64,000 nucleotides of DNA, from contig NC_134535.1 in the NCBI RefSeq assembly GCF_050624435.1, positions 73,528,494 to 73,592,493 of the forward strand, written 5' to 3'. The notes below the pieces were generated by a model. The model was not told where the DNA came from. It saw only the letters and a program-made list of their open reading frames with translations, and did not search any database. Of the stretch, positions 3,263-57,399 are shown one piece after another. A program made the position numbers and the translations under genes. Each line of letters opens with the position of its first letter. Position 1 is the stretch's first letter. The stretch is from Tenrec ecaudatus. Taxonomy: Eukaryota; Chordata; Mammalia; Afrosoricida; Tenrecidae.

Positions 3263-3837
3263 TGTGGTAGTTACATACTCTGGTGTCAATTTGAGAGGAT
3301 TATGAGTGAAGGGGTGGAGTCTGTTCTGTCAATTAAGATATAACCAATGAGGGAGGCCTCTGTGTGGGCATAGCCTTTTCTTGAGAATTCTGGGAACTCC
3401 AATTTTTCTTCCTTGGAGGCAGGAAACATCTTCTCACTCTACTCACTCCCTAGCAGACTCTCTACTGACAAGGCTGACTCCCTGCAAGACATCCCTGTGG
3501 AAAAGCCACATGGACCTACCCTGATGCAGCCCTGGGAACTGGAGAAGCCATGCGGAGTCCCCTGCCAGTGCTGAGATGCTTACAACGCCACTAGATCCAA
3601 AGACTTTCTACCCACAAGCCTGTGTTAGTCCTGCAGTGTCATTGCATGTGTTTCATGAGTCTGAAGAAGATTTTATAGATTGATATCAGACTTATGGGCT
3701 AATATCAGACTTATGCGCTTGGACTGGACCGGGTTGGGATGCTTTCTTAATGTAAAATTACCCTTTAGATAAAACTCTCTCTTATACACATATGAGTTTC
3801 TATGGATTTGTTTCTCTAGTCTACCTGGACTAACACA
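3263..3837 (+). mobile_element. Solo LTR (family A), 5-bp TSD
   Basis: The 575-bp element begins TGTGGTAGTTACATACTC and ends GGACTAACACA, so it has TG...CA termini. Identical CAGGT copies flank it at 3,258-3,262 and 3,838-3,842. TG/CA ends with a 5-bp duplication fit an endogenous-retrovirus LTR, most likely class III/MaLR-like. No internal retroviral region is attached, so it is a solo LTR. I cannot name the subfamily. Confidence 0.85.
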
Positions 3838-5280
3838 CAGGTTTTACAGTTAACTGAACACTGTACTGCATCCCCACACAAGTGGGACCTGAAGGCTGAG
3901 AACGAGAGGCCACAGCACGGCCACGCAGAACGACGGAGGAGCAGCTGGAAAAGAAGGAGGTGGTCTCCAGGCTCTGGCCTTTTGGGGGCTTTCTGCTGAG
4001 AGGTGTGGTTGATGGTGTTGGTTGACTCCATTGGCTGAATTAAGCCCACCTGGCCTAGATTGGGCCATTCCAGGTGGACCGCACCCCCCCACCACCACCA
4101 CCACCTGGCTCAGGGCCTGAATTGGTGCATGCCCAGTGGACACCCTGGTCCCTGTTCTGCTACCTAACATTTCCCCACTGAAGGAGTATGGACCCAAATC
4201 TTTGGGGAACTGGGTGATGACATCTCAGGCTGCTTTCTGCTGGTGAAAGGGGGCACAAAGTGGGGCTTTGGGTCCACGCCTTTTCTACTTTGTTGGCAGG
4301 GCTGACCACTCAGGGCCCACGAGGGATGAGGAGCTGGTGAGCCTGGGGATGGCACCCTTGGCTCAGTGACCATGGTAACCTGAAAACTTCTGGAAGAACT
4401 AAAACAGGTGGACAGTTTAGGTGAGACCAGGGTAAGCTCTGAGATAGCAGTGCCCTTGGAGGTGGGGGTCAGTGTCACGGGAAGTTTAGAAAAGAAATCT
4501 GAGGACTGACAGGGATGGAGTCAGTTGACTTTGAACACAGGAATAGTGTACAAGCATTTCCTGGCTTGGAGACTGTGGTGGGTCTGAGGTAGGGTTTTCT
4601 GTGGAGCTCTTCTCTGTCCTGGGGGACAGAGAAACACCCCCAACAGCTCTCAGGGGTGCTTGTCTGTATGCTCTGCTTCTGCGGGGTCTGGGTGCAATGG
4701 TTTCCACAGTGTCACCCGTGAATGGTGCCCAAGGTCAGGGGAGAAGCTGAGGACAGGATACAACGGGGGACAGACCCTGATACTCATCTAGAAAACAAAA
4801 CAGCAGAGAAGGCCGGAGGGCTCAATGTCTCGAGGTCAGTGATTGCAGTTTCAGCACTCGCCACTAGGGTGCCATGACACTGGGGCCTCAAGCAGGTGCC
4901 CCTGCCCAATGGAGGGGCCAGGGACCCAGTCTCTGCCAGCAAATTGGTCCTGACTGTGTTCTAGACAGCAAGCAATGGCCACAGGTTTGAGGGACTGTCC
5001 AAGGCCTACGGAGGGACCTACTGGCACGAGTATTTCTCCGGACCTCTGAAGGCGAGACCAGTGCTTGGAGTGATCCCCAATTGTCTTCAAAAGTGTCCAC
5101 TGGCATGAAGGGGAGGAGAGCCCCGTCACTTGGCTCAGGGAGTATTCTAAAGACATCGGGGTCCTTGGCTGGACACATACTGTCCCAGTGGAGCTGTACC
5201 AGGAACGTGCTGAAGGTGGTGTTGCTGAAAGGCCTTTGGAAACGAAACTTAGCAGTTACTTAGGGGACAGATAAATGCCT
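3838..5280. other. GC-rich unassigned stretch, no repeat recognised
   Basis: About 1.4 kb of GC-rich, CpG-poor DNA unlike its AT-rich surroundings. It begins right after the solo LTR duplication and ends at an L1 3' tail. Overlapping open frames of 70-115 codons exist on the minus strand, for example at 4,164-4,478 and 4,888-5,178, but none carries a domain I recognise. A (CCA)n run lies near 4,087-4,106. It could be an old retrocopy, the internal part of an unfamiliar repeat, or unique DNA. Confidence 0.35.
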
Positions 5281-9309: not shown

Positions 9310-10489
9310 TAAAAGGTACTAAATAAATATTTGTTGATAAAAATGAATATAAATGTTAAAGAAAGGTTTTTAGTTAATTGTCAGCCTGAGGATGACTATA
9401 AGCTGGAATTACAGTTGTTAAGAATATTGATCTGTTCTAAACAAGTGATGACAGAGTCCCAAATTGCCCTAAGATGTTTACATTAGATCTGTGACTTGTT
9501 GGTGCTACAGGAAGAGATTGCAGCCAACAATTTGCAGACTCAACTACTTTTGTTTTGTATTTGCAATTGCTTAATGTAGGAAGCAGGTCTTAAGGGATGA
9601 ATTGGACTCTGTTCTCCAGGGCCCCACAGTGTGTTTTTATGAAATAAAGAGATACTGCAATAAAAAGGTTGCTATGAATGCCCATTTGGACCGAGACGTG
9701 TATTATCTCATTTATAGTATTAGATGTGTCACGTTCCCTGAAGGAACTATCCAACAGTAATGTCATCATTCACTTTCTATCTTACATGAAAAAAAATTCC
9801 CATGTGGACATTCTCTGCAATTTCTATTGAGTTTGTAGTTCCATTGCAAGCACTTTTTCAGAAATGTCCATTATTTTTTCAATATTAAAGCAAATCTCAT
9901 AAGGGGGATTAAGGATTAGGTGTTATCAATGTAAAGAGAAAATAATCAGTCTTAATCATGACTGCATTATGTGAAAAAATGACTTCTTTTCATTGGATTT
10001 TGGTTTAAACCATTATACTGAAATTGGCTTCTGAAAAGTTGTCTCAGGTAACTTATTTATAGTCATGCTGTGGAAAAACACAATTTGCTATCAGTATCCT
10101 ATTATTTCTACCCTGCTCAGTTGTTTGTGACCTGAATAAATAAACCCAGGTGGTTTAATAGGATGAGAATGCTGCTGAGTTATGTAGAAGGAAAGAGAAA
10201 ACCTCTCGTTTATTCTCTCCAAGAAGATGAGGCAGACGAGATGGAGCTATAACTCGTCAGACTCTGAAAGGATGACCGAGAGCCCAGAGCCTTTCTCTGT
10301 GGAGCTCTGCTTCAGAGCTGCATGGCCAGAAGGAAGGAATGGGGCCACTGCCGTCCTGCATTCAAAAAGAATCAAAAGTACATGGGTGGGTGTGCTTTCT
10401 CACAGCACCCCTAAAGGATAGAGTTAAACTGCCTCTGTGGGTTTCCAAGACGGGGGGCTTGCATTGGACTTTTACATTTGTGTAGGGGA
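9310..10489. other. Unassigned, mostly AT-rich
   Basis: No exon, RNA gene or repeat recognised. A 64-codon open frame at 10,227-10,421 on the plus strand has no domain and I do not call it. Confidence 0.4.
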
Positions 10490-10689: not shown

Positions 10690-10940
10690 TTTTTTAAATT
10701 TTTTTTATTTTAACAATTTATTGGGGCTCATACAATTCTTTTCACAGTTCATATATATACATACATCAATTGTATAAAGCACATCTGTACAGTCTTTGCC
10801 CTAATCATTTTTTTCTCTTTTCTTCTTTTACATTTTATTAGGGACTCATACAACTCTTACCACAATCCATACATATACATACATCAATTGTATAAAGCAC
10901 ATCCATACATTCCCTGCCCCAATCATTCTCAAGAAGAAAT
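10690..10940 (-). mobile_element. L1 3' end with head-to-tail dimer of the terminal module
   Basis: Two consecutive copies of the terminal module lie in the same orientation. Each starts with an ATTTATTGGGG- or TTTATTAGGGA-type block and continues through CAATTGTATAAAGCACATC. They are joined by a pyrimidine-rich linker, CATTTTTTTCTCTTTTCTTC. The same dimer with nearly the same linker is at 33,990-34,230. Confidence 0.75.
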
Positions 10941-13532: not shown

Positions 13533-14091
13533 TGTAGTAGTTATATAATTTGGTGACAATTTGGGACTTGAGAGGATTCACAGTGAAGGGGTGGAGTCTA
13601 GTATGTCAATCAGGTCATAGCCAATGAGGCCTCTGTGTGGGCATGGCCTTCTCCTAAGGATTCTGGGAACTGCTATATTTCCCCCATGGAGGCTGGAGAC
13701 CCTCTCTGCTCACTCCCTTGGAAACTCTCTACTGACAAATCTCGCTCCCTGAGAGATGCTCTACTGAAAAGGCAGTGCCATGGGCACTGGAGGAGCCACA
13801 TGGAGACCCCTGCCAGCACAGAGATGCTTCTACCGCCACTGGATCCACAAGACTTTGCATCCACTGGTCTGTGATCTTCCTGCATTTGACATCATTGCAT
13901 GTGTTTCTTGAGTCTGAAGAGGAATTTATAGATTAGTATTTGACATATGGGCTAATAATCGGACTTATGGACTTCATCTGGACTGTGCTGGGGTGTTTTC
14001 TCAATATTAAACTGCTCTTGAATATAAAACTCTTTGTTATACACATGAGTATCCTATGAGTGTGTTTCTCTAGTCTAACCAGACTAACACA
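13533..14091 (+). mobile_element. Solo LTR (family A), 5-bp TSD with one mismatch
   Basis: This 559-bp element begins TGTAGTAGTTATATAATTTG and ends CCAGACTAACACA. Flanks are ATATA on the left and ATATG on the right, a 5-bp duplication with one change. The internal order of landmarks matches 3,263-3,837. No proviral interior is present. Confidence 0.8.
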
Positions 14092-14757: not shown

Positions 14758-15168
14758 TATATACAAGAGCAATTGAACATGGAGAAAACATCCCAGCCCA
14801 GTCCAGATCAAGTCCATAAGCCCGATATTGGCCCATATTTCCATTATCAATTGATAAAGTCCTCTTCAGACTCACGAAACACATGCAATGAAGCCAAATG
14901 CAGGACAATCACAAACCAGTGGGTAGAAAGTCTTTGGGTCCAGTGGTGTTGTAAGCATCTCAGCGCTGGCAGGGGTCTCTCTGTGGCTTCTCCGGCTTCC
15001 GAGGTCTGGTTGTGTCCGTGTGGCTTGTCTTCTGCAGTGTCTCCCAGGGAGTCGCAGAGAGAGGGGTTTCTTCTGCCTCCAAGGAGGAAGTCCCAGAATT
15101 CTCAGAATGCCATGCCCACAGAAGTCTCATTAGCTATATCCAGATTCACAGCCCAGACTCCACCCCTA
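14654..15168 (-). mobile_element. LTR (family A) with an expanded (TA)n tract
   Basis: It begins TGTATTAGTCTGGGTAGACT, the reverse complement of the LTR 3' end, and runs to the GACTCCACCCCTACA block, where the next L1 tail interrupts it. The segment that is a simple CATATATGAG stretch in other copies is here a (TA)n array at about 14,694-14,756. The remainder of the LTR beyond 15,168 is missing. Confidence 0.75.
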
Positions 15169-18159: not shown

Positions 18160-19921
18160 CACCGCTGCCGGCTGATACCAGTGGAGTTAAGTCAAGAGCC
18201 ATGTGTTGAGGAGCAAGACTTTATAGAAGGCCAAAATAAAAATGATTATAATAGGCCATTTGTTTCAATAGGCGATTGCAAGTACATGCCTGTCTAAGTT
18301 GGAAAATATACATTATTCAGCCACATGATTATAATGGTAACTGCCATTGACTGAATGAATGCTTTCGTGGTACACGCCTCACTTTGGGGGATGTGCTTCT
18401 GAAACTCAGTCACTGGAGACTCTACAGCTCCCAAAGGTCCTGTCCACGATCAACCACAGAGACAGTGCAGGACAGCGCAGCATTTCCTTCCGCTTGCTTG
18501 TGACCACCATGTGTCTGGGAGCAACTCACAGCCACCGCCATAGAAATGAGGAACCGGGGGAGAGAGAGAACAAACTGCCTGACCAGTTCTGCAGTGGGCT
18601 GCCGTCCTTCTTCTACCCTTCTCTCTCAGGGTCCCTCCCGGACAAAATGAAGTTTATATTGGATCCCTGGCTACCCTTTCAGAGATGTGCCTTAGATCAT
18701 TTTATATGCAGCAGCTCCCGTACGCAGGCATTGAACTCATGCAAGTTTAGATTATATTCAAATTGAGGTCAGAGTTCATTTTCACCCGACCTTTTTTAAC
18801 CATCATGGTCTGGTGGAGCTGGAAGCGGCAATATGCAGACGGTGCAGCCGGGTGACACTGTTCAAATCTACCCTCGACGCTGTAATTGGTAAATCTCCCC
18901 ATGTGTTTTTGAAAAATTAATCAAGACAGGTTTGGTGAACCTTTGCTGTGAGAGTCTCTTTAGGACAAACGACTTTGTTCCCACTGTATTGTCATAAGGA
19001 AACTCCAGCTGCAAATCCCAAGGTGACCCATTTATCTCACTTGGGTGGAAAATAATGACTTTTTAAGCACTGCAAATAATTCTGCTGGTTTAAAATCAAC
19101 TTGGTTAATACAATTAAATGCAACTATTTGATCTTTCAGGCCCAAAACCCATCATATAACTCATATGTTAACATTTTAATGTGGACACAGCCGCCCAAAT
19201 CTCCCCATACAGCCAACGTAATCTTCCGATGGAGAGGTGTTGAGACCGAGCTGACCCAACTAGTTCATAGTGTCCTTTGAACTCTCTCCAGAATGAGTCA
19301 CCAGAAGTGCCAAGAAAGTGTTTCTGCCTTAAACACTCATCTTTGGCCTCGAAGTCAATGGCCTTATGAGGTCTTGTGCACATCCTCACCAGAGAGGACC
19401 ATTGCGACGTGCGCATCGAATTCCACTGGGTGCCTACGCTTCGCACCTCGATCCCTTTCAAAGTCACAGGACCTCTTGGACACTGTATGGCCAACCTCAA
19501 AGACACATATTAAGTCCCCATATCACTCAGTGAGATTTAGCACTGAGAACACCTCCTCTTGTCTGGAAATTCTTTTCTGTTAACCTTAGCACGTTTCTTT
19601 TGGTCTCTTAAATGAAATGCTCTCAATCTCCTTCTGCTACAACAAACTCTTAAATGCTCTTTTGTCTTAGTGTCTAATCCTTGACTTTCTTCCCTTCCCA
19701 TTCTGTTTATTCTCTCTTTTACTTTATGACTTCAACTCCCACCCACAAGATAGAGCGAAAACTCATGTACAGCTTCACGCCTGGTCTCTCCTCCAAGCCT
19801 CAGATTCACATCAACCAATAGGGCTGCTGCTAGCCATGTGTGGATATTTAACTTTGAATTAAATAAAGTTTCAAATTTCATTCCTCATTCACATATTTCA
19901 TTACTCAATAACCACATGTGG
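18160..19921. other. Unassigned sequence
   Basis: Two longer open frames, plus 18,359-18,766 (135 codons) and minus 19,168-19,506 (112 codons), have no domain I can name. I see no splice or poly(A) support, and I leave both uncalled. Confidence 0.35.
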
Positions 19922-20431
19922 TATGTTAGTCCAGGTTGACTAGAGAAACAAATTTATAGCCACTCATATGTGTATAAGAAAGAGCTTTATAGACAGAGTA
20001 ATTGTATATTAAGAAAACATCCCAGCCCAGTCCAGATCAAGTCCATAAGTCCGATATTAGCCCATTTGTCTGACACCAGTTTGTCAATTCCTCTTCAGAC
20101 TCACAAAACACATGCAATGACGCCAAATGGAGGAAGATCACAGCCAGTGAGTGGGAAGTCTTGTAGATCCATGACAGTGGAAGCATCTCAGTGCTGGCAG
20201 GCATCTCCACGTGGCTCTCCCAGCTCCAGGGCTCTAGCATAGCTCCATGTGTCTTGTCAACAGGAAGACCAAGCAGAGAGTCTATGTGTCCCACCTACCG
20301 GGAGCAAGAAAGGAATTCCCAGAATCCTTAGGAGAAGGCCATGCCCACACAGAGACTTCATTGGCTATGACCTGATTCACAGGCTAGACTCCACCCCTTC
20401 ACAAGTTGATAGATTATATAACTGCCACTTG
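19922..20431 (-). mobile_element. LTR (family A), reverse orientation
   Basis: It starts TATGTTAGTCCAGGTTGACT and carries TTAAGAAAACATCCCAGCCC and ACACATGCAATGACGCCAAA. It runs to GACTCCACCCCTTCACAAG and a degenerate ACTGCCACT end. The terminal dinucleotides are mutated and no clean duplication remains. Confidence 0.7.
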
Positions 20432-33299: not shown

Positions 33300-35060
33300 T
33301 ATGTATTTTTCTGGCAGACCTGTGTCTGATATTGCCAGTGAATATTATTGTAAGTCGTGCTTGACCACCAACTCCCATTGTTGTGCAAATACATAAAGAT
33401 TTATTCTGTCCAAGTGAGGAATACATGTATTATGATAGTTAGCCTACACTTGTCAGTCTCCCTCTCTCATTGGTGTTTAGTAACATGGGATAATCAATGA
33501 CACTATAAACAGAAGGTCCTTATGCTCCAGAAAGATGATTGATAAGACTCTCTACCATAAATTAACAAGGATATCTCTAAGGTGAACCAGAGGCATATAA
33601 AAAGACATAGACTCGGGAATGGATTTGGGGATCGCACTCAATCCTAGCTCCAATGTAATAATTAGTTCTTACCACATGGCCCTGCTTGATACTACCAGCA
33701 TGAAGAAACACGGAAAACAGGGGTGCTAGCATAAAGTGTGGTGAAGAAATTAGATGGTGCCCAACTATATCAGAAAGAATAGCGTCTGGGGTCTTAAAGG
33801 TTTGTTGTCAAACAAGCGGCCATCTAAGTGAGACATCAACTAAGTCCACATGGAAGCAGCACACCAACATCGTAATCCTAGGACTGTGGATTTTTTTTTT
33901 GTTTTACTTTAAGGGTTGTATATTACATCATTAGTATTTTAAGCTTTCAATGAAAATTCTGTGAATCTTTTCAGAGCATCAATGTTCCACTTTTTTAAAC
34001 ATTTTATTAGGGGCTCATACAACTCATCACAATCCATGGATATACATACATCAATTGTATAAAGCACATCTGTACATTCTTTGCCCTAATCATTTTTTTC
34101 CTTTTCTTTTTTTACATTTCATTAGGGGCTCATACAACTCTTATCACAATCCACACATATACATACATCAATTGTATAAAGCACATCCGTACATTCTTTG
34201 CCCTAATCACTCTCAAAGCATTTGCTCTCCACTTAAGCCCTCCGCATCAGGTCCTCTTTTTTTTCCCCTCCCTCCCGCTCCCCCCTCCCTCATGAGCCCT
34301 TGATAATCCACAGATTGTTATTTTGTCATATCTTGCCCTATCCGGAGTCTCCCTTCCCCACCTTCTCTGCTGTCCATCTCCCAGGGAGGAGGTCACATGT
34401 GGATCCTTTTAATCAGTTCCCCCTAGGACTGAGTTTTATAATCCAAATCCAAAGGAGGGAATACAGTATCAGAGCTTAAATTGTGAGATTTAGTGTGCAA
34501 AACGTTACGGATGACAGTGGAAGCCCAAAATATGTTTGCAGGATTTAGAGGGGGAATAAGCCTCCGATTATTTCCCTAAAACCATAGTTGAGAGGTGGGA
34601 ATACTCTGGCTATCTGAGAGTATTGGAGAGACAATTATGGTAAATGAAAATGATCAATCTGACTTGAATGGTTAAAACCTTGTCACTTGATCTCCCTTTT
34701 GATACTTTGCACTTGATCTGGTTTTTAATCTTTTGTTTTTAATTGGGGTTTGTCTCTGTTATAGTTTGTCATTGTTTTGGTAGCCTTCTTGACTCTCAGT
34801 TAAGTTTTTCTATGATTTTTGCTATATGAAACCCAGGATAAGGTGAATCCATGGAGGCAATAGCTAGAATAAGGGTTCCTGGGGGTATGGCAGGGGAGGT
34901 GGGAGGTAAGGGAGAGCTGCTATCAAGGAGTTCCAGGAGGAAGAACATGCTTTGAAACTGTTTCCGGTAGTAATTGCATAACACTACTTGATATGACTGA
35001 ACTATGGAATGGTATGATGGATGGGCCAGCTCCTAGTAAAATGGTTTAATGTATAAATAC
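33300..35060 (+). mobile_element. L1 3' UTR, split by a reversed L1 end
   Basis: The left part carries CATGGCCCTGCTTGATACTA, CGTCTGGGGTCTTAAAGG and AACTAAGTCCACATGGAAGC. The right part, from about 34,430, carries CTATCAAGGAGTTCCAGGAG, ACTGAACTATGGAATGG and an AAAATGGTTTAATG end. The interval about 33,890-34,425 is a later insertion in the other orientation. Confidence 0.7.
33990..34425 (-). mobile_element. L1 3' end with dimeric terminal module
   Basis: Two head-to-tail copies of the terminal module start at about 33,997 (TAAACATTTTATTAGGGGCT) and 34,115 (ACATTTCATTAGGGGCTCAT). A TTTTTTTCCTTTTCTTTTTT linker joins them. The structure equals that at 10,690-10,940 and here extends further, to GGGAGGAGGTCACATGTGGA. 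Confidence 0.75.
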
Positions 35061-51600: not shown

Positions 51601-54600
51601 CCCTACAGAGCAGAGTAGAACTGCCTGTGGGTTTCCAAGCCTGTCAATCTTTTTTTTTAATCATTTTATTAGGGGCTCCTACAACTCTTATCACAATCCA
51701 TACCCACATTAATTGTGCAAAGCACATTTGTATATTCATTGCCCTCATCATTCTCGCAATATTTGCTCTCCAAAGCCAGTCAACCTTAAGGGAAGAAAGC
51801 ATCATCCTTTGCCCACAGAGCAGCGGGTGGTTTCAAACTGCTGACCTTCATGTGTTATCCCACTATGCCCAGGGCTCCTACAGAGCCAAAGAGCTGCCCT
51901 TTGTTCAGCTCCTGCTCCACTGACATTAAGGTTGATAAACTCTGTTCCTCATAACCACCCTAAACGTTAGCTATTTTTAACTCTTCATCTTCATTTTTTT
52001 CACAGCAACAGATTCAACTGATCAGAGAGGGTAGGTCACTGTGTTAGTTAGTTTATTGTGCCAACCTGGCCGAGAAACACATGTGGGATTAATTGAAGGG
52101 CGGAGGGATAAATGGCTCGGTGAGCCTCACCTTTGGAGTTCTAGAGTGCTTTGTGATGGTCAGACAGGGTGCAGCTGCCTTAGCCGTTCCCAGCTTCAGC
52201 TGGCAAGGCTGACTTCTTGCAAGACATCCCCAAGGAGAAGTCACATGAACCTACAGCCCTGGGTGGTGGAGCACCCATGTGGAGGCCCCTGCCAGTGCTG
52301 AGATGCTTACACATTCACTAACTCGGCTTTCCTCCTGCAGTCGGCATCATTGCATCTGTATTGTGAGATGGAGGAGGACTTTGTGGACCAGTGTTGGACA
52401 TATGGGTGAATGGGTTAATGTTAGACTTGTGGGCTTGGGCAGCACTGGGTTGGGATGTTTTCTTGATGCACACTTCACCTTTATATAAAACTCTTATACA
52501 TGAGTTGCTGTGGATTTGGTTCTCTAAAGTACCCAGACTAACACAGTCACTCTTCCACAGCTAACAAGGAGACCTGACTTGGAATTCACATTTTTACCTC
52601 CACCACCCGTATCTATCCTCTGCTCTCCAGGCTGAAACACCTCTTTTTTATCATTAAATTAATAAATCTTTTTATTGGGGCTCATAAAGCTCTTATCACA
52701 ATCCGTACATACATCAATTGAGCAAAGCACCCCTATAAATTCGTTGCACTCGTCATTCTCATAACTGAAACACCTCTTACTTTTCCTGCTACCAAACCCA
52801 GGAGACACCCGATTGATGTGGAAAATAAATACAATGTCATCATGTGTTTTCACATTTCCCGTCCTCCTCCACCCTCCTGAAGTCCCTGTGCACTGTCAAT
52901 GGTGTGTGCTTGAGCACGCTCACAGGATGTGACAGAGCAAGGTGTCCCATAGGTTTCTGAGGCTTTAATCCTGACAGGTACAGACGGCCGTAGCTTACTC
53001 ACCTCCAGCTTTAAGAAGGCACAGCCACTGCATCAACAGGATTCAGTGGGAATACTAGCAGGTATTCATTCCCAAGATGGTGGGGGTTTGGGGGGGACAA
53101 TGGGGGACTGACTTTTGAACTGTGGCTGGTCATGCAAAAAGTAAATCTGCTCTGGGGCAGGTGCATTTGAGACTCGGACTCTCTAAATGTAGCTGGTATA
53201 AACAGGAAGAAGACTATGTCAGGGTAAATGTGTTAAATCATCTCCAAGTGTAATGTCCTGAGCCTAGAGAAATCAGTGAGATGGTAGTGGCACAATGTAA
53301 CCCCAGCAGTTAACCTTAACTCAGTTAACCTCTTTTTGGAGTGATGTATGTATGCCCTAAAAAACCTGTTGCATATCCTAACCCCTAGGCTTGTGGTTAC
53401 AATCCCTTCTGAGAACGGGTTCTTTGTTGTGTTAATGAGGCAGGATTCCTGAAGGGGTGTATCTTGAGTCATTCTCGTTTGAGATAAAAAGAAAGTATAG
53501 AAACCAGCAGAGAGTTAAGACAGAACCAAGTCACGTGGAGATCTCCAAGCACCCAGCAGCTGAAGAGCCCAGGACCTCTAGAAGCAAAAGAGAGAAAGCG
53601 TTCCCCTTAAGGCTAGCGCTTTGAATTCAGACTGTGAGCCTCCTAAACACAGGAGTACTGGTTGCCCTAGTGGGTACGAGTTTGCACTGCTCTCCACAAG
53701 GTCAGCAGTTTGAGACCACCACCCGTTCTGTGAGAGAAAGAAGGGGCTTTCTACTCCTGTAAAGCATTAGTCTCTGAAACTCACAGGGGCAGTTCTACCC
53801 TGTCCTATAAAGTTACTATGAGCCAGTAACTTGATAGCAGTGAGCTCTGAGCCACCTAAACTGTGCGGAAAAACATTTCTGCTTGTACAATCCACTCACT
53901 TGTGAAATTTCTACTAAAGCGGCCACAGAGGCTCCCAGATAGCATTTGAAACCCCAGCCGCCAGAGCTTTCCGTTCCTGGCGTCACCATCTCAGAAACCC
54001 ACAGGAGCAGCTCCACCTCAGACTCTCGGGTCTCTAGGAGTTGGAATCCACTTGGTGGCAGTGAGTTTTGTCTGAGATAACGAAGACAGTGCTCAAGGGC
54101 CCTTTGGGGAATATGATTAAGTTAGGAACTCTCAAAAAAAAAATAGACAAGTGATTTCACAGTCCATGTCAGGGCTTTCCACACTCTGAAGCCCATCCAA
54201 ATGGAAAAGTGACGCATAACAGGTTTGCAAAACGGTTTGTTTGTTTGTTTTAACATTGTTGAGTAGTGGGCATGCCTTAATTAACAGGGCTCTTTAAAAG
54301 CGCCTCACCCATGATCAAAAGGGAAGAAATGCTGAACAGAATTTCAAATTCTCATAGTCTTTCTGGCACTTTGGGAGCTGCATTGAACCCCTGAAATTGC
54401 TGCCCTGAGTTAAATCTTACACCTGAAACCAAAAATGCCCCCGAAATCATCTTTTAAGTCAAACAACTGTTTAGCTTAGTAAAACAGGTCTGCCTTGAGC
54501 ACCACGCTCTTTGAAGAACCATCGGGGATTAAATTGACAACAGCGACCAGAAAACTCAGGAGCTTCGCGGGGTGGGGGGTGGATGGGGGAACGACTCAGA

Positions 54601-55204
54601 AAAGGAACAGAACAAGTACACAGCTCAATGCGTGTGACCGTCACCATAATGGACAAGCAGAAACTGCTGACTTGCTGTGTTTGTTCCGCAACAGAAAGGA
54701 ACTTTAACAATAACCACCTCTAGTTCCGGACCCTAAGGCCCTCATCTTGCTGCATAATTTACAGGAGGAAAAGAAAAGGGTCCACGGAGCATCCAGAGAA
54801 GCTCTGCGGCCAAAAATGGCTGATGCCTCATTCATTCCACAAGCAGCGGTGGGGCTGAAAAGGGGAAACTGAGGCCCAGCCGCCGCACTCTGCCCCCACG
54901 TGCCTAATGGGCCGAGGCTGGCAAAGGTGCCAGAGCCCGGCCCCCCGCGCACCTGGGGATGCACCCGAGGCCTGAGGCCACCCCCCCCCCACCGCGCCCC
55001 AGCCTCCAGGTGGCGGCTCCTACTTGTGTCCAGCGTCTTCAGGAGCATGAGCTGGCACTTCCGGTCGTTGGTGAAGCTAGAGAAGAACCCTTGCTGGGGC
55101 TTCTCTGCCAGCCGCTCCGGGAAGACCTGGCACGAGACGGGTGGCTCCGGCGACTGCTCCCCGGCCGCGGGGCCCGACCCGCGCTCGTCCGGGGCTTCGG
55201 CCAT
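39223..55204 (-). CDS. ATP23: ATP23 metallopeptidase gene, six coding exons (span)
   Basis: ATP23 (also XRCC6BP1 or KUB3) is an M76-family zinc metallopeptidase of the mitochondrial intermembrane space. In yeast it matures Atp6 and helps assemble the ATP synthase F0 part; the human protein was also isolated as a Ku70-binding protein. Joining 55204-55024, 50616-50571, 49605-49524, 45623-45486, 43674-43591 and 39426-39223 gives 735 nt, that is 244 residues plus TGA, near the length I recall for the human protein (246). All introns are GT-AG and the phases agree. The zinc motif His123-Glu124-Leu-Ile-His127 lies in exon 4. Eleven cysteines fit a disulfide-rich intermembrane-space protein. No frameshift or premature stop is present. 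I recognise the protein with high certainty. Confidence 0.97.
40215..40375 (-). repeat. AfroSINE in ATP23 intron 5
   Basis: CTCACTGCCATCAAGTCAAT, GAAGAACTGCCTTCTAGAGT and AGCAGCTGGTGGTTTTCAAC mark the copy. The tRNA-like head is truncated. Confidence 0.8.
40380..41639. other. Intron 5 sequence without recognised features
   Basis: Unique-looking intronic DNA. A GTTTGG-rich stretch near 41,270-41,305 may be a SINE tail remnant. Short open frames (for example 40,541-40,786) carry no domain. Confidence 0.4.
41640..42520 (+). mobile_element. LTR-like repeat (family B) split by a MITE
   Basis: It shares CATCTGGTTCTTTGGACTTG and CCTGCCAACTT with 8,695-9,305. After the MITE it ends GAGCCATTTCCTTGAAATAA followed by ATTGCTCTCACA. 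The TA-flanked insertion at 42,026-42,467 lies inside it and is younger. Confidence 0.5.
42026..42467. mobile_element. TA-flanked MITE with subterminal hairpin
   Basis: The 442-bp element has about 25-bp inverted ends, 20 of 25 matching by eye: CCGTATATACTCGTGTATAA on the left and the complement of GTATATTCAAGTATATAAGG on the right. It is flanked by TA, as in Tc1/mariner-like transposons. Arms at 42,038-42,062 and 42,070-42,100 form a 25-bp perfect stem with a 7-base loop and a 6-base bulge. It has no coding capacity. A piece of the same family lies at 63,423-63,505. It is intronic in ATP23. Confidence 0.75.
42577..42647. repeat. (CT)n(TA)n compound microsatellite
   Basis: About 26 CT units followed by about 9 TA units, directly before a reversed AfroSINE. 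Confidence 0.95.
42648..42826 (-). repeat. AfroSINE in ATP23 intron 5
   Basis: TTGCCATCAAGTCAATTCCA, TTTGAACCACTGACCTTAAG and GGTTAGCAGCTCAAAGCTTA are diagnostic. A (GT)n run and a sense AfroSINE follow within about 35 bp. Confidence 0.9.
42833..42857. repeat. (GT)n microsatellite between inverted SINEs
   Basis: About 12 uninterrupted GT units. Confidence 0.95.
42859..43045 (+). repeat. AfroSINE, inverted relative to its neighbour
   Basis: Sense copy: GAGTTCTGGAGGTATAGTGA, TTCAAAACCACCAGCCATTC, CTTTCTACTCCCGTAAAGTT and CAGTGGCACTGAGTTTGG. Confidence 0.88.
43078..43275 (+). repeat. AfroSINE, second sense copy
   Basis: GAGCTCTGGTAGCATAGTGG, AAAGTTCAAACCACCAGCTG, GAGTCAGAATTGACTCAATG. It follows the previous copy head to tail and lies about 315 bp from exon 5. 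Confidence 0.85.
43390..43435. mobile_element. Partial palindromic MITE
   Basis: CCAAGAACTTTTTGAAGCCC resembles the right arm of the 7,713-7,787 element. The other arm is not seen. Confidence 0.4.
43591..43674 (-). CDS. ATP23: ATP23 coding exon 5 (84 bp)
   Basis: Twenty-eight codons in phase 0, residues 150-177: [18 protein letters not shown] followed by [10 protein letters not shown]. The acceptor is TTATAG|ATTC and the donor CATCAG|GTAAC. It includes conserved Cys159 and the amphipathic segment after it. Confidence 0.96.
43680..44698. other. Intron 4 sequence without recognised features
   Basis: AT-rich intronic DNA. I see no exon or clear repeat between exon 5 and the (GT)n tract. Confidence 0.4.
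44699..44720. repeat. (GT)n microsatellite
   Basis: About 11 GT units in ATP23 intron 4. Confidence 0.95.
44820..45090 (+). repeat. MIR element
   Basis: AGTCAAGAGCCTTGATTGTA, CACTTCCCACATATATAAAA with TGGGGACTGTAATGG, and the ending AAGTATGTGGCAAA follow the MIR sense order, diverged. Confidence 0.55.
45110..45180. mobile_element. Possible palindromic MITE
   Basis: GGGATTTCAAAATGCTCATG and the reversed TTTTCCAAAGTCCCC end resemble the 7,713 family weakly. Confidence 0.3.
45190..45285 (-). repeat. AfroSINE fragment close to exon 4
   Basis: TGCCACTGAACTTGATTCCA and CTCAGAGCAACCCGG correspond to the reversed SINE end. The remainder is lost. It lies about 200 bp downstream of exon 4. Confidence 0.55.
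45486..45623 (-). CDS. ATP23: ATP23 coding exon 4, zinc-binding catalytic motif
   Basis: Forty-six codons in phase 0, residues 104-149. It opens IVLCQNNI and contains [15 protein letters not shown], the metallopeptidase HExxH signature followed by Asp130, and then HVDWFTN. It ends HLACSE. The acceptor is TCTCCCAG|ATTG and the donor CCGAG|GTGAG. All catalytic and metal-binding residues of the motif are intact, so the product should be able to bind zinc. Confidence 0.98.
45640..47279. other. Intron 3 sequence, mostly unassigned
   Basis: Largely unique. ACACTGGGAGAAGTGCTAAG and nearby sequence at about 46,255-46,400 look like an old MIR or L2 remnant. The 145-codon minus-strand frame at 46,377-46,814 has no domain. 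A GC-rich pyrimidine-biased stretch occupies 45,680-45,850. Confidence 0.4.
47280..47650 (+). mobile_element. Old L1 3' UTR
   Basis: GATCCAGCAACCCCACTCCT, CTCTCACGTGTGCACCAGGA, CAGCAGCACTGTTCATAATT and TGGCATGATTTCATTTACAT are sense-oriented L1M 3' UTR landmarks. Confidence 0.65.
47880..48030 (+). repeat. Degenerate AfroSINE
   Basis: CATAAAGATTACAGCCGTGG, AAACCCCGTGGGCCAGTTCT and CCATCCTATAGGATCC remain from a sense copy whose head is badly decayed. Confidence 0.55.
48190..48330 (-). repeat. MIR fragment
   Basis: AATGAGTTGCCTAGGGCCCC and GGGATTAAAGCCCAACTCTC with CCTGACTCC follow the reversed MIR order. Confidence 0.5.
48331..49054. other. Intron 3 sequence without recognised features
   Basis: No exon or clear repeat is seen. 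A GC-rich part around 48,740-48,990 is CpG-poor. Confidence 0.4.
49055..49370 (+). repeat. AfroSINE split by an L1 tail fragment
   Basis: The head is GGTGTAGTGGTTGCTCACTG and CAAAACCACCAGCAGCTCCA. The reading breaks at about 49,165 and resumes at GGACTTACAGTCTCAGAAGC, with CACCATGAGTCAGAATGGAC at the end. The insert, about 49,168-49,275, carries TGAGGTTCTGAAATTGCTTG and GACATGACTGAACTGTATGA, an L1 3' end. The copy is about 155 bp downstream of exon 3. Confidence 0.8.
49524..49605 (-). CDS. ATP23: ATP23 coding exon 3 (82 bp)
   Basis: It completes Cys76 and encodes [20 protein letters not shown] and FDALSSQ (residues 77-103). It includes the conserved Cys86-x-x-Cys89 pair and the GGFD turn. 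The acceptor is CTGTCTTCTAG|TGCC and the donor CTCAG|GTAGG. The exon ends in phase 0. Confidence 0.96.
49971..50160 (+). repeat. AfroSINE in ATP23 intron 2
   Basis: GCCCTTGGGGCCTAGTGGTT, GGTCAAGCAGCTCAAGACTA, CATCTCAGAAATGCGCAGGG and TTCTGCCATGTCCTGCTGAG mark a diverged sense copy. Confidence 0.75.
50571..50616 (-). CDS. ATP23: ATP23 coding exon 2 (46 bp)
   Basis: It encodes the rest of Asn61 and [14 protein letters not shown], ending with two bases of Cys76. The acceptor is CTTTTTAG|ATCC and the donor GGTTG|GTAAGTAG. The segment is a conserved helix before the cysteine-rich part. The exon is too short for ORF-based detection and was found by protein similarity and phase. Confidence 0.95.
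50620..51409. other. Intron 1 sequence, no recognised feature
   Basis: It includes a GC-rich, G/CAG-rich part at 50,740-51,010 with overlapping open frames up to 119 codons. They are antisense or low-complexity and unsupported. Confidence 0.4.
51410..51560 (-). repeat. AfroSINE
   Basis: AGATTCTGACTCATAGTGAC, GGCAGCTGGTGGGTTTGAAC and CAGTTAGTGACCACGGCC identify a reversed copy. Another begins immediately after it. Confidence 0.8.
51561..51890 (-). repeat. AfroSINE split by an L1 end
   Basis: The left part, to about 51,649, has CTCACACTGCCATAAAGTGA and GAACTGCCTGTGGGTTTCCA. The right part, from about 51,786, has AGCGGGTGGTTTCAAACTGC and ATGCCCAGGGCTCC. The L1 insert is flanked by duplicated SINE sequence. 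Confidence 0.85.
51650..51770 (-). mobile_element. 5'-truncated L1 3' end with TSD
   Basis: A T-run, AATCATTTTATTAGGGGCTC and CATTGCCCTCATCATTCTCG form the insert. CCAAGCCTGTCAATC (51,635-51,649) and CAAAGCCAGTCAACC (51,771-51,785) match at 12 of 15 bases. Confidence 0.85.
52040..52545 (+). mobile_element. Solo LTR with perfect 5-bp TSD
   Basis: The 506-bp element starts TGTGTTAGTTAGTTTATTGT and ends CCAGACTAACACA. GTCAC copies flank it at 52,035-52,039 and 52,546-52,550. Its start matches the 24,934 and 60,041 LTRs; its 3' half matches family A. It lies in ATP23 intron 1, opposite to the gene. Confidence 0.9.
52646..52764 (-). mobile_element. 5'-truncated L1 3' end with 14-bp TSD
   Basis: CTGAAACACCTCTT occurs at 52,632-52,645 and again at 52,765-52,778. 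The 119 bp between them are the reversed L1 tail (AATCTTTTTATTGGGGCTCA, CAATCCGTACATACATCAAT). Confidence 0.9.
52780..53650. other. Intron 1 sequence without recognised features
   Basis: No exon or named repeat. Part of 53,230-53,560 resembles an old LTR-like sequence (TATCTTGAGTCATTCTCGTT), not assigned. Confidence 0.35.
53652..53846 (+). repeat. AfroSINE
   Basis: GAGTACTGGTTGCCCTAGTG, AGGTCAGCAGTTTGAGACCA, GGCAGTTCTACCCTGTCCTA and TTGATAGCAGTGAG identify a sense copy. Confidence 0.88.
53938..54070 (+). repeat. Partial AfroSINE
   Basis: CATCTCAGAAACCCACAGGA, GGAGTTGGAATCCACTTGGT and GGCAGTGAGTTTTG remain from a second sense copy. Confidence 0.65.
54071..54879. other. Intron 1, promoter-proximal, no feature
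   Basis: No repeat or exon is recognised up to the CpG island. The first-exon frame remains open until 54,704 without family similarity. Confidence 0.4.
55024..55204 (-). CDS. ATP23: ATP23 coding exon 1
   Basis: The exon encodes residues 1-60 plus the first base of codon 61. It starts [17 protein letters not shown], a family-typical start, and runs to a segment ending LLKTLDT. It contains [10 protein letters not shown] and the QQGFFSSF stretch. The donor reads ACACAA|GTAGGA. The ATG at 55,204 is the only family-consistent start. The frame stays open well into intron 1, to 54,704, but that extension has no family similarity. Confidence 0.97.
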
Positions 55205-55343
55205 GCGGCCTCCGACCGCGCCGCTGCCAACTCACAGTTCCCGCGGCGGCGACAGAAATCTGGAAAGACCAGTTACCTCCTTCCAGACTAACCCACCACC
55301 CGGGGCCCAGGGACTCGGGGCGCAGAGCGGGCGTGGAAACGCA

Positions 55344-55471
55344 GGGCGGGAGGGAGCTGGGCGGGGCTAGAGGTGGTGGGCGGGGCTAGGAGCGCTGGGC
55401 GGGGCAAGAGGCACTGGGCGGGGCCTGGGGCCTTAGGCGGGAGGGGCACGCTGGGCGGGGCGGGGCCGGGG
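55344..55471. repeat. Tandem GC-box array, 19-bp period
   Basis: GGGCGGGG (or close AGGCGGGA and GGGCGGGA forms) starts at 55,344, 55,359, 55,378, 55,397, 55,416, 55,435 and 55,453. The spacings are 15, 19, 19, 19, 19 and 18. The units between boxes (CTAGAGGTGGT, CTAGGAGCGCT, CAAGAGGCACT and so on) are related, so this arose as a minisatellite. Each unit supplies an Sp1/KLF-type site about 140-270 bp upstream of the ATG. Confidence 0.85.
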
Positions 55472-56534: not shown

Positions 56535-57001
56535 AATTATATGGTCAGGTGACTCAGAATCAACTTGATGAGACTGGAGGATTTTTTGCAGTTAAGGAGA
56601 TAAATAGCTCACTGGAGGTGGGATACCTACTCACTCACTGTGCAACATTACTGACAAGGAGTCTGATAGAGCTATACTGATGCAGCCAGAACCTTGAGCT
56701 GGAGGAGCCACCTGGAGACCCACACCAGTGCTGAGATGCTTCCACTGTCACTGCATCCACAAGACTTTCCACCCACTGGCCTGTGATCTCCATGCATTCA
56801 GCATCATTGCATGTGTTGCGTGAGTCTGAAGAGGACTTCATAGATTGGTATCAGACATATGGGCTAATATCAGACTTATGGACTTGATTTGGACTGGACT
56901 GGGATGTTTTCTCAATATTCAATTGCTCTTGTATATAAAGCTCTCTCTTACACACACGAGACTCCTTGGATCTGTTTCTCTAGTCTACCCAGACTAACAC
57001 A
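56535..57001 (+). mobile_element. LTR (family A), 5'-truncated or decayed
   Basis: AGCATCATTGCATGTGTTGC, TTCATAGATTGGTATCAGAC, AATTGCTCTTGTATATAAAG and the end CTACCCAGACTAACACA match the 3' two thirds of family A. The start is not sharp. Confidence 0.75.
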
Positions 57002-57188
57002 CAGTCTTTTTCATTAAATCCTGAGGTAGAGGGTATTACTACCTTTCTTGGGCAGAAAAGGCAAATTGACAATGATACTGAGTAGTTAGTTACTCTCCAT
57101 AAAAAACACCTCACTTTCATTGAGTAAGTTCAATAAGAAAAGGTAAGACTGTCTCTGTGGGTTTCCAAGACTGCAAGTTGGGAGTAGA

Positions 57189-57286
57189 TACTACATTTGA
57201 TCTTAGCCAAAAGGCCGAGAAGGTGTGGGCCAGTGGCGCAATGGATAACCCATCTGACTACGGATCAGAAAAGGCCGAGAGGCGAT
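57189..57286 (-). pseudogene. U2 snRNA 5' fragment, tailless retropseudogene
   Basis: On the minus strand the sequence begins ATCGCCTCTCGGCCTTTT at 57,286. After the interruption it continues GGCTAAGATCAAATGTAGTA to 57,189. This is roughly the first 40 nt of U2 snRNA with very few changes. It stops abruptly without poly(A) or the rest of U2, and the duplicated SINE target flanks it. It is a truncated, non-functional copy, and it was later split by a tRNA fragment. Confidence 0.85.
57221..57268 (+). pseudogene. tRNA-Arg(ACG) 5'-half, tailless retropseudogene
   Basis: From 57,227 the sequence GGGCCAGTGGCGCAATGGAT and onward follows tRNA-Arg-ACG through the D arm and anticodon loop (CTACGGA) to GATCAGAA. 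I recall two differences from the tRNA over about 44 nt. It ends after the anticodon stem. AAAAGGCCGAGA at 57,209-57,220 and 57,269-57,280 flanks the insert: a perfect 12-bp duplication of U2 sequence. It cannot fold into a full tRNA, so it is not a functional gene. Confidence 0.85.
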
Positions 57287-57399
57287 TTTATGGGAGTAGA
57301 AAGCCTCCTCTTTCTCCCATGGAGTGGGTCATGGTTTTGAACTGCTGACCTGTGCTTAGCAGCCCAATGCATAACCCCTACACCATCGAAGTTCCTGAG

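Follow-up and report, generated by a model that had tools for sequence, protein, structure and literature searches.

A probable nest of two tailless retropseudogenes, of U2 snRNA and tRNA-Arg(ACG), within a SINE of Tenrec ecaudatus

Tailless retropseudogenes, a class reportedly described by Schmitz et al. 2004, are the closest known counterparts of the locus analyzed here, which lies in a window of 64,000 nucleotides of Tenrec ecaudatus DNA. The passages of PMC5322556 (Noll et al. 2015) that define this class link it to L1 and ask of a copy that its 5' end be complete, that its 3' truncation be at least 10 nt and that it be at least 30 nt long. In the same passages the target TT/WAAAAWW is a consensus and does not stand among the filters.

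Our locus consists of three layers: a SINE that contains a U2 snRNA piece on the minus strand, which in turn contains a tRNA-Arg(ACG) piece on the plus strand. In both inserts the 5' end is complete, the 3' part of the RNA and an A-tail are lacking, and target-site duplications (TSDs) stand on the two sides, as in the 3'-truncated tRNA and U2 copies of PMC5322556. As in that paper's account, the copies end in or next to single-stranded RNA and the target and the RNA are complementary to each other. The locus departs from that account in that two such copies are nested and in that the U2 target, GGGAGTAGA, is purine-rich and not of the TT/WAAAA type. A literature search on nested U2 retropseudogenes in SINEs gave no match, although we do not claim that such nesting has never been printed.

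The 3'-truncated snRNA pseudogenes mobilised by L1, as presented in the relevant part of PMC4476161, are similar in that truncation occurs in single-stranded segments and short pairing is made to the nicked target. However, that part of PMC4476161 describes a purine-rich snRNA segment and pyrimidine-rich DNA, whereas at our locus the roles would be reversed, with pyrimidine-rich U2 and purine-rich DNA as the partners. A further likeness is to the chimeric tRNA/L1 and U2/L1 insertions in the corresponding sections of PMC13174262, which contain partial 5'-end tRNA pieces, and U2. Unlike those chimeras, no L1 sequence is joined to the pieces in the stretch read, and each piece has its own TSD.

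The three layers and their boundaries

The following features, listed by position in the window, show how the layers are nested and in what order they arose, as well as their duplications and truncations.

57101..57385, minus strand: AfroSINE-type SINE, nearly full length (alignment ends; the true ends are approximate)
57179..57188, no strand: left U2 TSD, TGGGAGTAGA (exact repeat; 4-5 nt are missing beside the TSD)
57186..57222, minus strand: U2 snRNA nt 5-41 (cmscan and alignment; 57186-57188 are common to the left U2 TSD)
57209..57222, no strand: left tRNA TSD, AAAAGGCCGAGAAG (12/12 exact; 13/14 when extended by eye)
57223..57226, plus strand: GTGT, four additional bases that separate the TSD from tRNA nt 1 (either leader of the precursor or untemplated)
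57227..57270, plus strand: tRNA-Arg(ACG) nt 1-44 (42/44 identical; 57269-57270 are common to the right tRNA TSD)
57269..57282, no strand: right tRNA TSD, AAAAGGCCGAGAGG (12/12 exact; extension by eye)
57269..57286, minus strand: U2 snRNA nt 1-18, the 5' part of the copy, on the far side of the tRNA insert (alignment)
57287..57300, no strand: right U2 TSD, TTTATGGGAGTAGA (TTTA stands next to YGGGAG in several SINE copies and in the consensus)

The outermost layer is presumably an AfroSINE and thus of afrotherian origin, a family name that we assume and that fits. Its joined flanks align without a break to other SINE copies in the window, and of the 176 ungapped sites in their alignment with the consensus of 13 other window copies, 146 match and 30 differ. 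The family as a whole gives 33 matches, which merge into 31 regions of the window (E up to 1e-3), a count that includes the right half of the focal element and many short matches. The earlier note had placed the whole nest at 57147..57395; the SINE is longer, as its alignment starts at 57101. When the SINE's own TSD was sought, only a weak candidate with 9 matches out of 10 was found, AACAACTCAG / AACTACTCAG, one copy of which adjoins the SINE start while the other is located about 13 nt past the T-run.

Several other repeats were seen in the window. One of about 340 bp at 56663-57004 stops about 100 bp from the SINE; similar stretches (at about 13749-14091, 19921-20230, 3510-3840, 14758-15025, 810-1062 and 52332-52545) have 68-82% identity over long pieces. 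A unit of 117-118 bp forms a head-to-tail dimer at each of two distant places, 10700-10927 and 33990-34209; the consensus units are similar, and the two dimers perhaps belong to one interspersed repeat. Reading frames overlap one another on the two strands at 54704-55441, beside a G/C-rich tandem array with a 19/38-bp unit, and the region has the look of a GC-rich promoter or first exon.

For the middle layer, a cmscan search of the 351 bases around the locus returned the U2 model RF00004 on the minus strand with 45.3 bits and an E-value of 4.2e-8, which applies to that small search. The score falls 0.7 bits short of the gathering score of 46. An Rfam scan of the whole window at the gathering score gave no entry and a whole-window search for a full tRNA found none, which is expected because the pieces are truncated. 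We did not use the U2 boundaries proposed by cmscan, which were stretched to 57119 where a weak, gapped alignment ran on into the SINE; its assignment of the four bases before the tRNA to U2 nt 1-4 was likewise set aside in favour of the aligned pieces.

With the tRNA and one TSD copy removed, U2 nt 1-41 align at 39 of 41 positions with a reference that we take to be the U2 sequence, in accordance with the earlier claim that the first ~40 nt of U2 are present on the minus strand. The tRNA insert was likewise compared with a sequence that we take to be tRNA-Arg(ACG). The human pre-tRNA-Arg shown in PMC6882493 agrees with this tRNA reference, the first 31 nt of which are labelled ArgACG in a part of PMC6237853. 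The alignment scores of 69 for U2 and 78 for the tRNA exceed the maxima of 23 and 24, respectively, at 1980 other placements in the window (2000 were drawn and 20 near the locus were dropped).

The U2 copy thus has a complete 5' end, a 3' truncation of at least 10 nt (the Rfam model is 192 nt long) and a length of at least 30 nt. Its nt 41 abuts or overlaps the TSD, leaving no A-tail, and is located within a single-stranded stretch according to the Rfam structure line. The 10-nt core TGGGAGTAGA is repeated exactly (10/10) at 57179-57188 and 57291-57300. As the right copy is preceded by TTTA, which several other SINE copies and the consensus also carry there, the duplication becomes a 14-nt TSD, TTTATGGGAGTAGA, from which the shorter left copy differs by a gap of 4-5 nt. 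This gap is best read as a small deletion and the TSD as 14 nt long, with 10 nt plus four added bases as a possible alternative. The 10-nt repeat that the earlier note gave on the two sides of U2 is therefore in place, but the full TSD is better read as the longer one. With 10/10 exact bases, or 14 nt if the gap is a deletion, it falls in the 8-35 nt and at least 70% identity range of the class.

The innermost copy comprises nt 1-44 of the 73 nt of the tRNA and four preceding bases; its 5' end is complete by the rule of the class, which tolerates bases of the precursor, its 3' end is truncated and it has no A-tail. It is flanked by the 12-nt core AAAAGGCCGAGA, made of U2 letters, at 57209-57220 and 57269-57280, and the perfect duplication described by the earlier note is borne out at 12 of 12 positions. 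These TSDs, too, are within the 8-35 nt and at least 70% identity range, both as the exact 12 nt and when extended by eye (13/14). The trailer of the human pre-tRNA-Arg depicted in PMC6882493 starts with the same four bases (GUGU) as the GTGT at 57223-57226, which is probably a coincidence.

Flank repeats of this kind are rare by chance. For pairs of 25-nt flanks with 44 nt between them, an exact shared word of at least 12 bases (the length of the tRNA repeat) was found in 4 of 20000 random placements and one of at least 10 bases (the length of the U2 repeat) in 14 of 20000; the focal locus was kept among the placements, and the actual gap for U2 measures about 97 nt.

Because the tRNA insert is flanked by duplicated U2 letters, U2 was there before the tRNA, and because the U2 insert is flanked by duplicated SINE letters, the SINE was there before U2. 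Divergence supports the SINE as the oldest layer, since it differs from the window consensus at 30 of 176 sites and the two inserts together differ from their references at 4 of 85 (Fisher p=0.005), although the SINE figure is inflated by a consensus built from old copies in one window. Taken singly, the comparison with the SINE gives p=0.051 for U2 and p=0.033 for the tRNA. The inserts themselves have 2 mismatches in 41 and 2 in 44, and their relative age is not separable by divergence.

Hence, the account in the earlier note of a nest at these positions holds, with both repeats found there and 39/41 U2 and 42/44 tRNA bases aligned. Its reading of two successive tailless insertions, and of the layers as a relative time order from SINE through U2 to tRNA, agrees with the duplicated letters of each earlier layer and with the greater divergence of the SINE, and its choice of class agrees with the features set out in the passages of PMC5322556 cited above. 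We consider it highly probable that the locus is a nest of two tailless retropseudogenes within a SINE, and are less sure of the priming step.

Priming and templates

We infer that L1 machinery and annealing are the cause of both inserts. A tRNA-derived AfroSINE-type SINE would have been inserted first. Later, L1 machinery would have nicked this SINE, and the free DNA 3' end would have annealed in the single-stranded branch-site region of U2, which would then have been reverse-copied from nt 41 back to nt 1. Later still, in a similar event within the U2 copy, a 3' end TTTT would have primed tRNA-Arg(ACG) at nt 43-46, and copying would have run through the 5' end of the tRNA and 4 bases further. 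Both insertions would have left a target-site duplication and no A-tail. The TSDs at the locus, of 12-14 nt, are close to the TSD peak of 14-16 bp that is given for full-length L1 in the pertinent part of PMC2912911.

An uninterrupted pairing of 11 bases, 7 Watson-Crick and 4 G-U, is possible between the target strand ending in TATGGGAGTAGA and U2 nt 39-49. Counting the focal end, 6 of the window's 2757 AGA ends reach 11 bases at this place in U2 (3 of 171 inside SINE regions and 3 of 2586 outside), and 12 of 2757 do so when every UCU within U2 nt 1-63 is admitted; in shuffles, the frequency is 0.4%. The comparison was made post hoc and counts G-U pairs, with only 3 Watson-Crick bases before the first G-U; read in this manner, it suggests that annealing set the truncation point of U2.

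The U2 target is a poor L1 endonuclease site, as the nick falls after TAGA or up to 3 bases earlier and not after TTTT. Written as TT/TCTACTCC, it deviates from the consensus TT/WAAAAWW, and its fit to the endonuclease is limited to TT/T in the sense direction. The tRNA target, CC/AAAAGGCC, contains the AAAA of the consensus, but the upstream TT is missing. The TTTT primer pairs with tRNA nt 43-46 over 4 bases, one of them G-U, and 2342 of 11359 TT-ended sites are equal or better. This pairing is unremarkable, and therefore we draw nothing from it.

The earlier note had also suggested a tRNA half as the template. The copy, however, ends at nt 42-44, past the anticodon loop and at the edge of the anticodon stem or just past it, and it holds the whole 3' strand of that stem, which ARAGORN folds as 27-31 with 39-43. 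Because the copy reaches nt 42-44 with the full 3' stem strand, its end was not made by a cut in the anticodon loop, and a 5' tRNA half with its 3' end in that loop is rejected as the template. The halves considered in the corresponding section of PMC13174262 are 30-40 nt long, with nt 1-37 marked.

A wider form of this idea concerns the templates only and is compatible with the nesting: the RNAs copied could have been already cut tRNA and U2 fragments instead of internally primed whole RNAs. The same section of PMC13174262 argues for tRNA halves as templates of tRNA/L1 chimeras. Nevertheless, we find cut templates unlikely here, given that the tRNA end lies past the anticodon loop and that the target can also pair with the U2 bases that follow the point of truncation. 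Moreover, for 5S and U2, the passages of PMC5322556 on the matter favour internal priming over truncated RNA templates and report no matching fragments.

The pairing with U2 appears to be shared by other members of the SINE family. Counting G-U pairs, 9-11 bases of the SINE strand TAYGGGAGTAGA can pair with the branch-site region of U2. A pairing of at least 9 bases was found at 10 of the 171 AGA ends in SINE regions, the focal right copy included, and at 38 of the 2586 outside, with the locus's own left TSD copy counted among these 38; the resulting Fisher p=0.0005, or p=0.002 without the focal site, is flattering because related SINE copies are not independent. Most of these 10 ends appear by their letters to be one SINE site, with the end at 10422 being different. 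A BLAST search of the window with the U2 reference did not find a further U2 insertion. That the family provides a standing landing site, which U2 may enter repeatedly at one position despite the poor endonuclease site, seems to us quite improbable.

One event or several, and what the locus offers

The insertions could in principle be replaced by a single chimeric event, in which the reverse transcriptase switched from SINE RNA to U2 RNA and back while the SINE was being inserted, so that the outer repeats would be re-copied template and not TSDs. The 11 paired bases of the SINE strand and U2 would suit such a template jump just as well. The return jump, however, must re-copy about 14 nt that had been copied before, whereas a target-primed insertion yields the repeat without coincidence. 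The SINE is also more diverged than both inserts jointly, and the tRNA has the opposite orientation to U2 with U2 letters on both of its flanks. We regard this explanation as very improbable. Least probable is a SINE subfamily or composite repeat containing the U2 and tRNA pieces, of which the locus would be one copy among many: a part of PMC13174262 notes that in some organisms SINEs have been built from U1/U2 snRNA, but the window lends the idea no support, as the insert is absent from 17 other aligned copies (chosen from BLAST, some spanning one side only), and BLAST with the U2 and tRNA-Arg references finds no second copy in the window at E <0.4 (the next best E-values are 1.3 and 0.46).

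In summary, the two inserts are best taken as successive insertions into a SINE. Both are inert tailless retropseudogenes, for which we propose no function, and the locus adds one ordinary, tidy example to the published class, the picture of which is unchanged. Its readable three-layer stack, with two tailless insertions in a known order, is usable as a presence/absence marker. Furthermore, on a small scale the U2 junction can serve to test whether truncation at a poor endonuclease site is set by annealing of the target DNA to the RNA, with G-U pairs counted.
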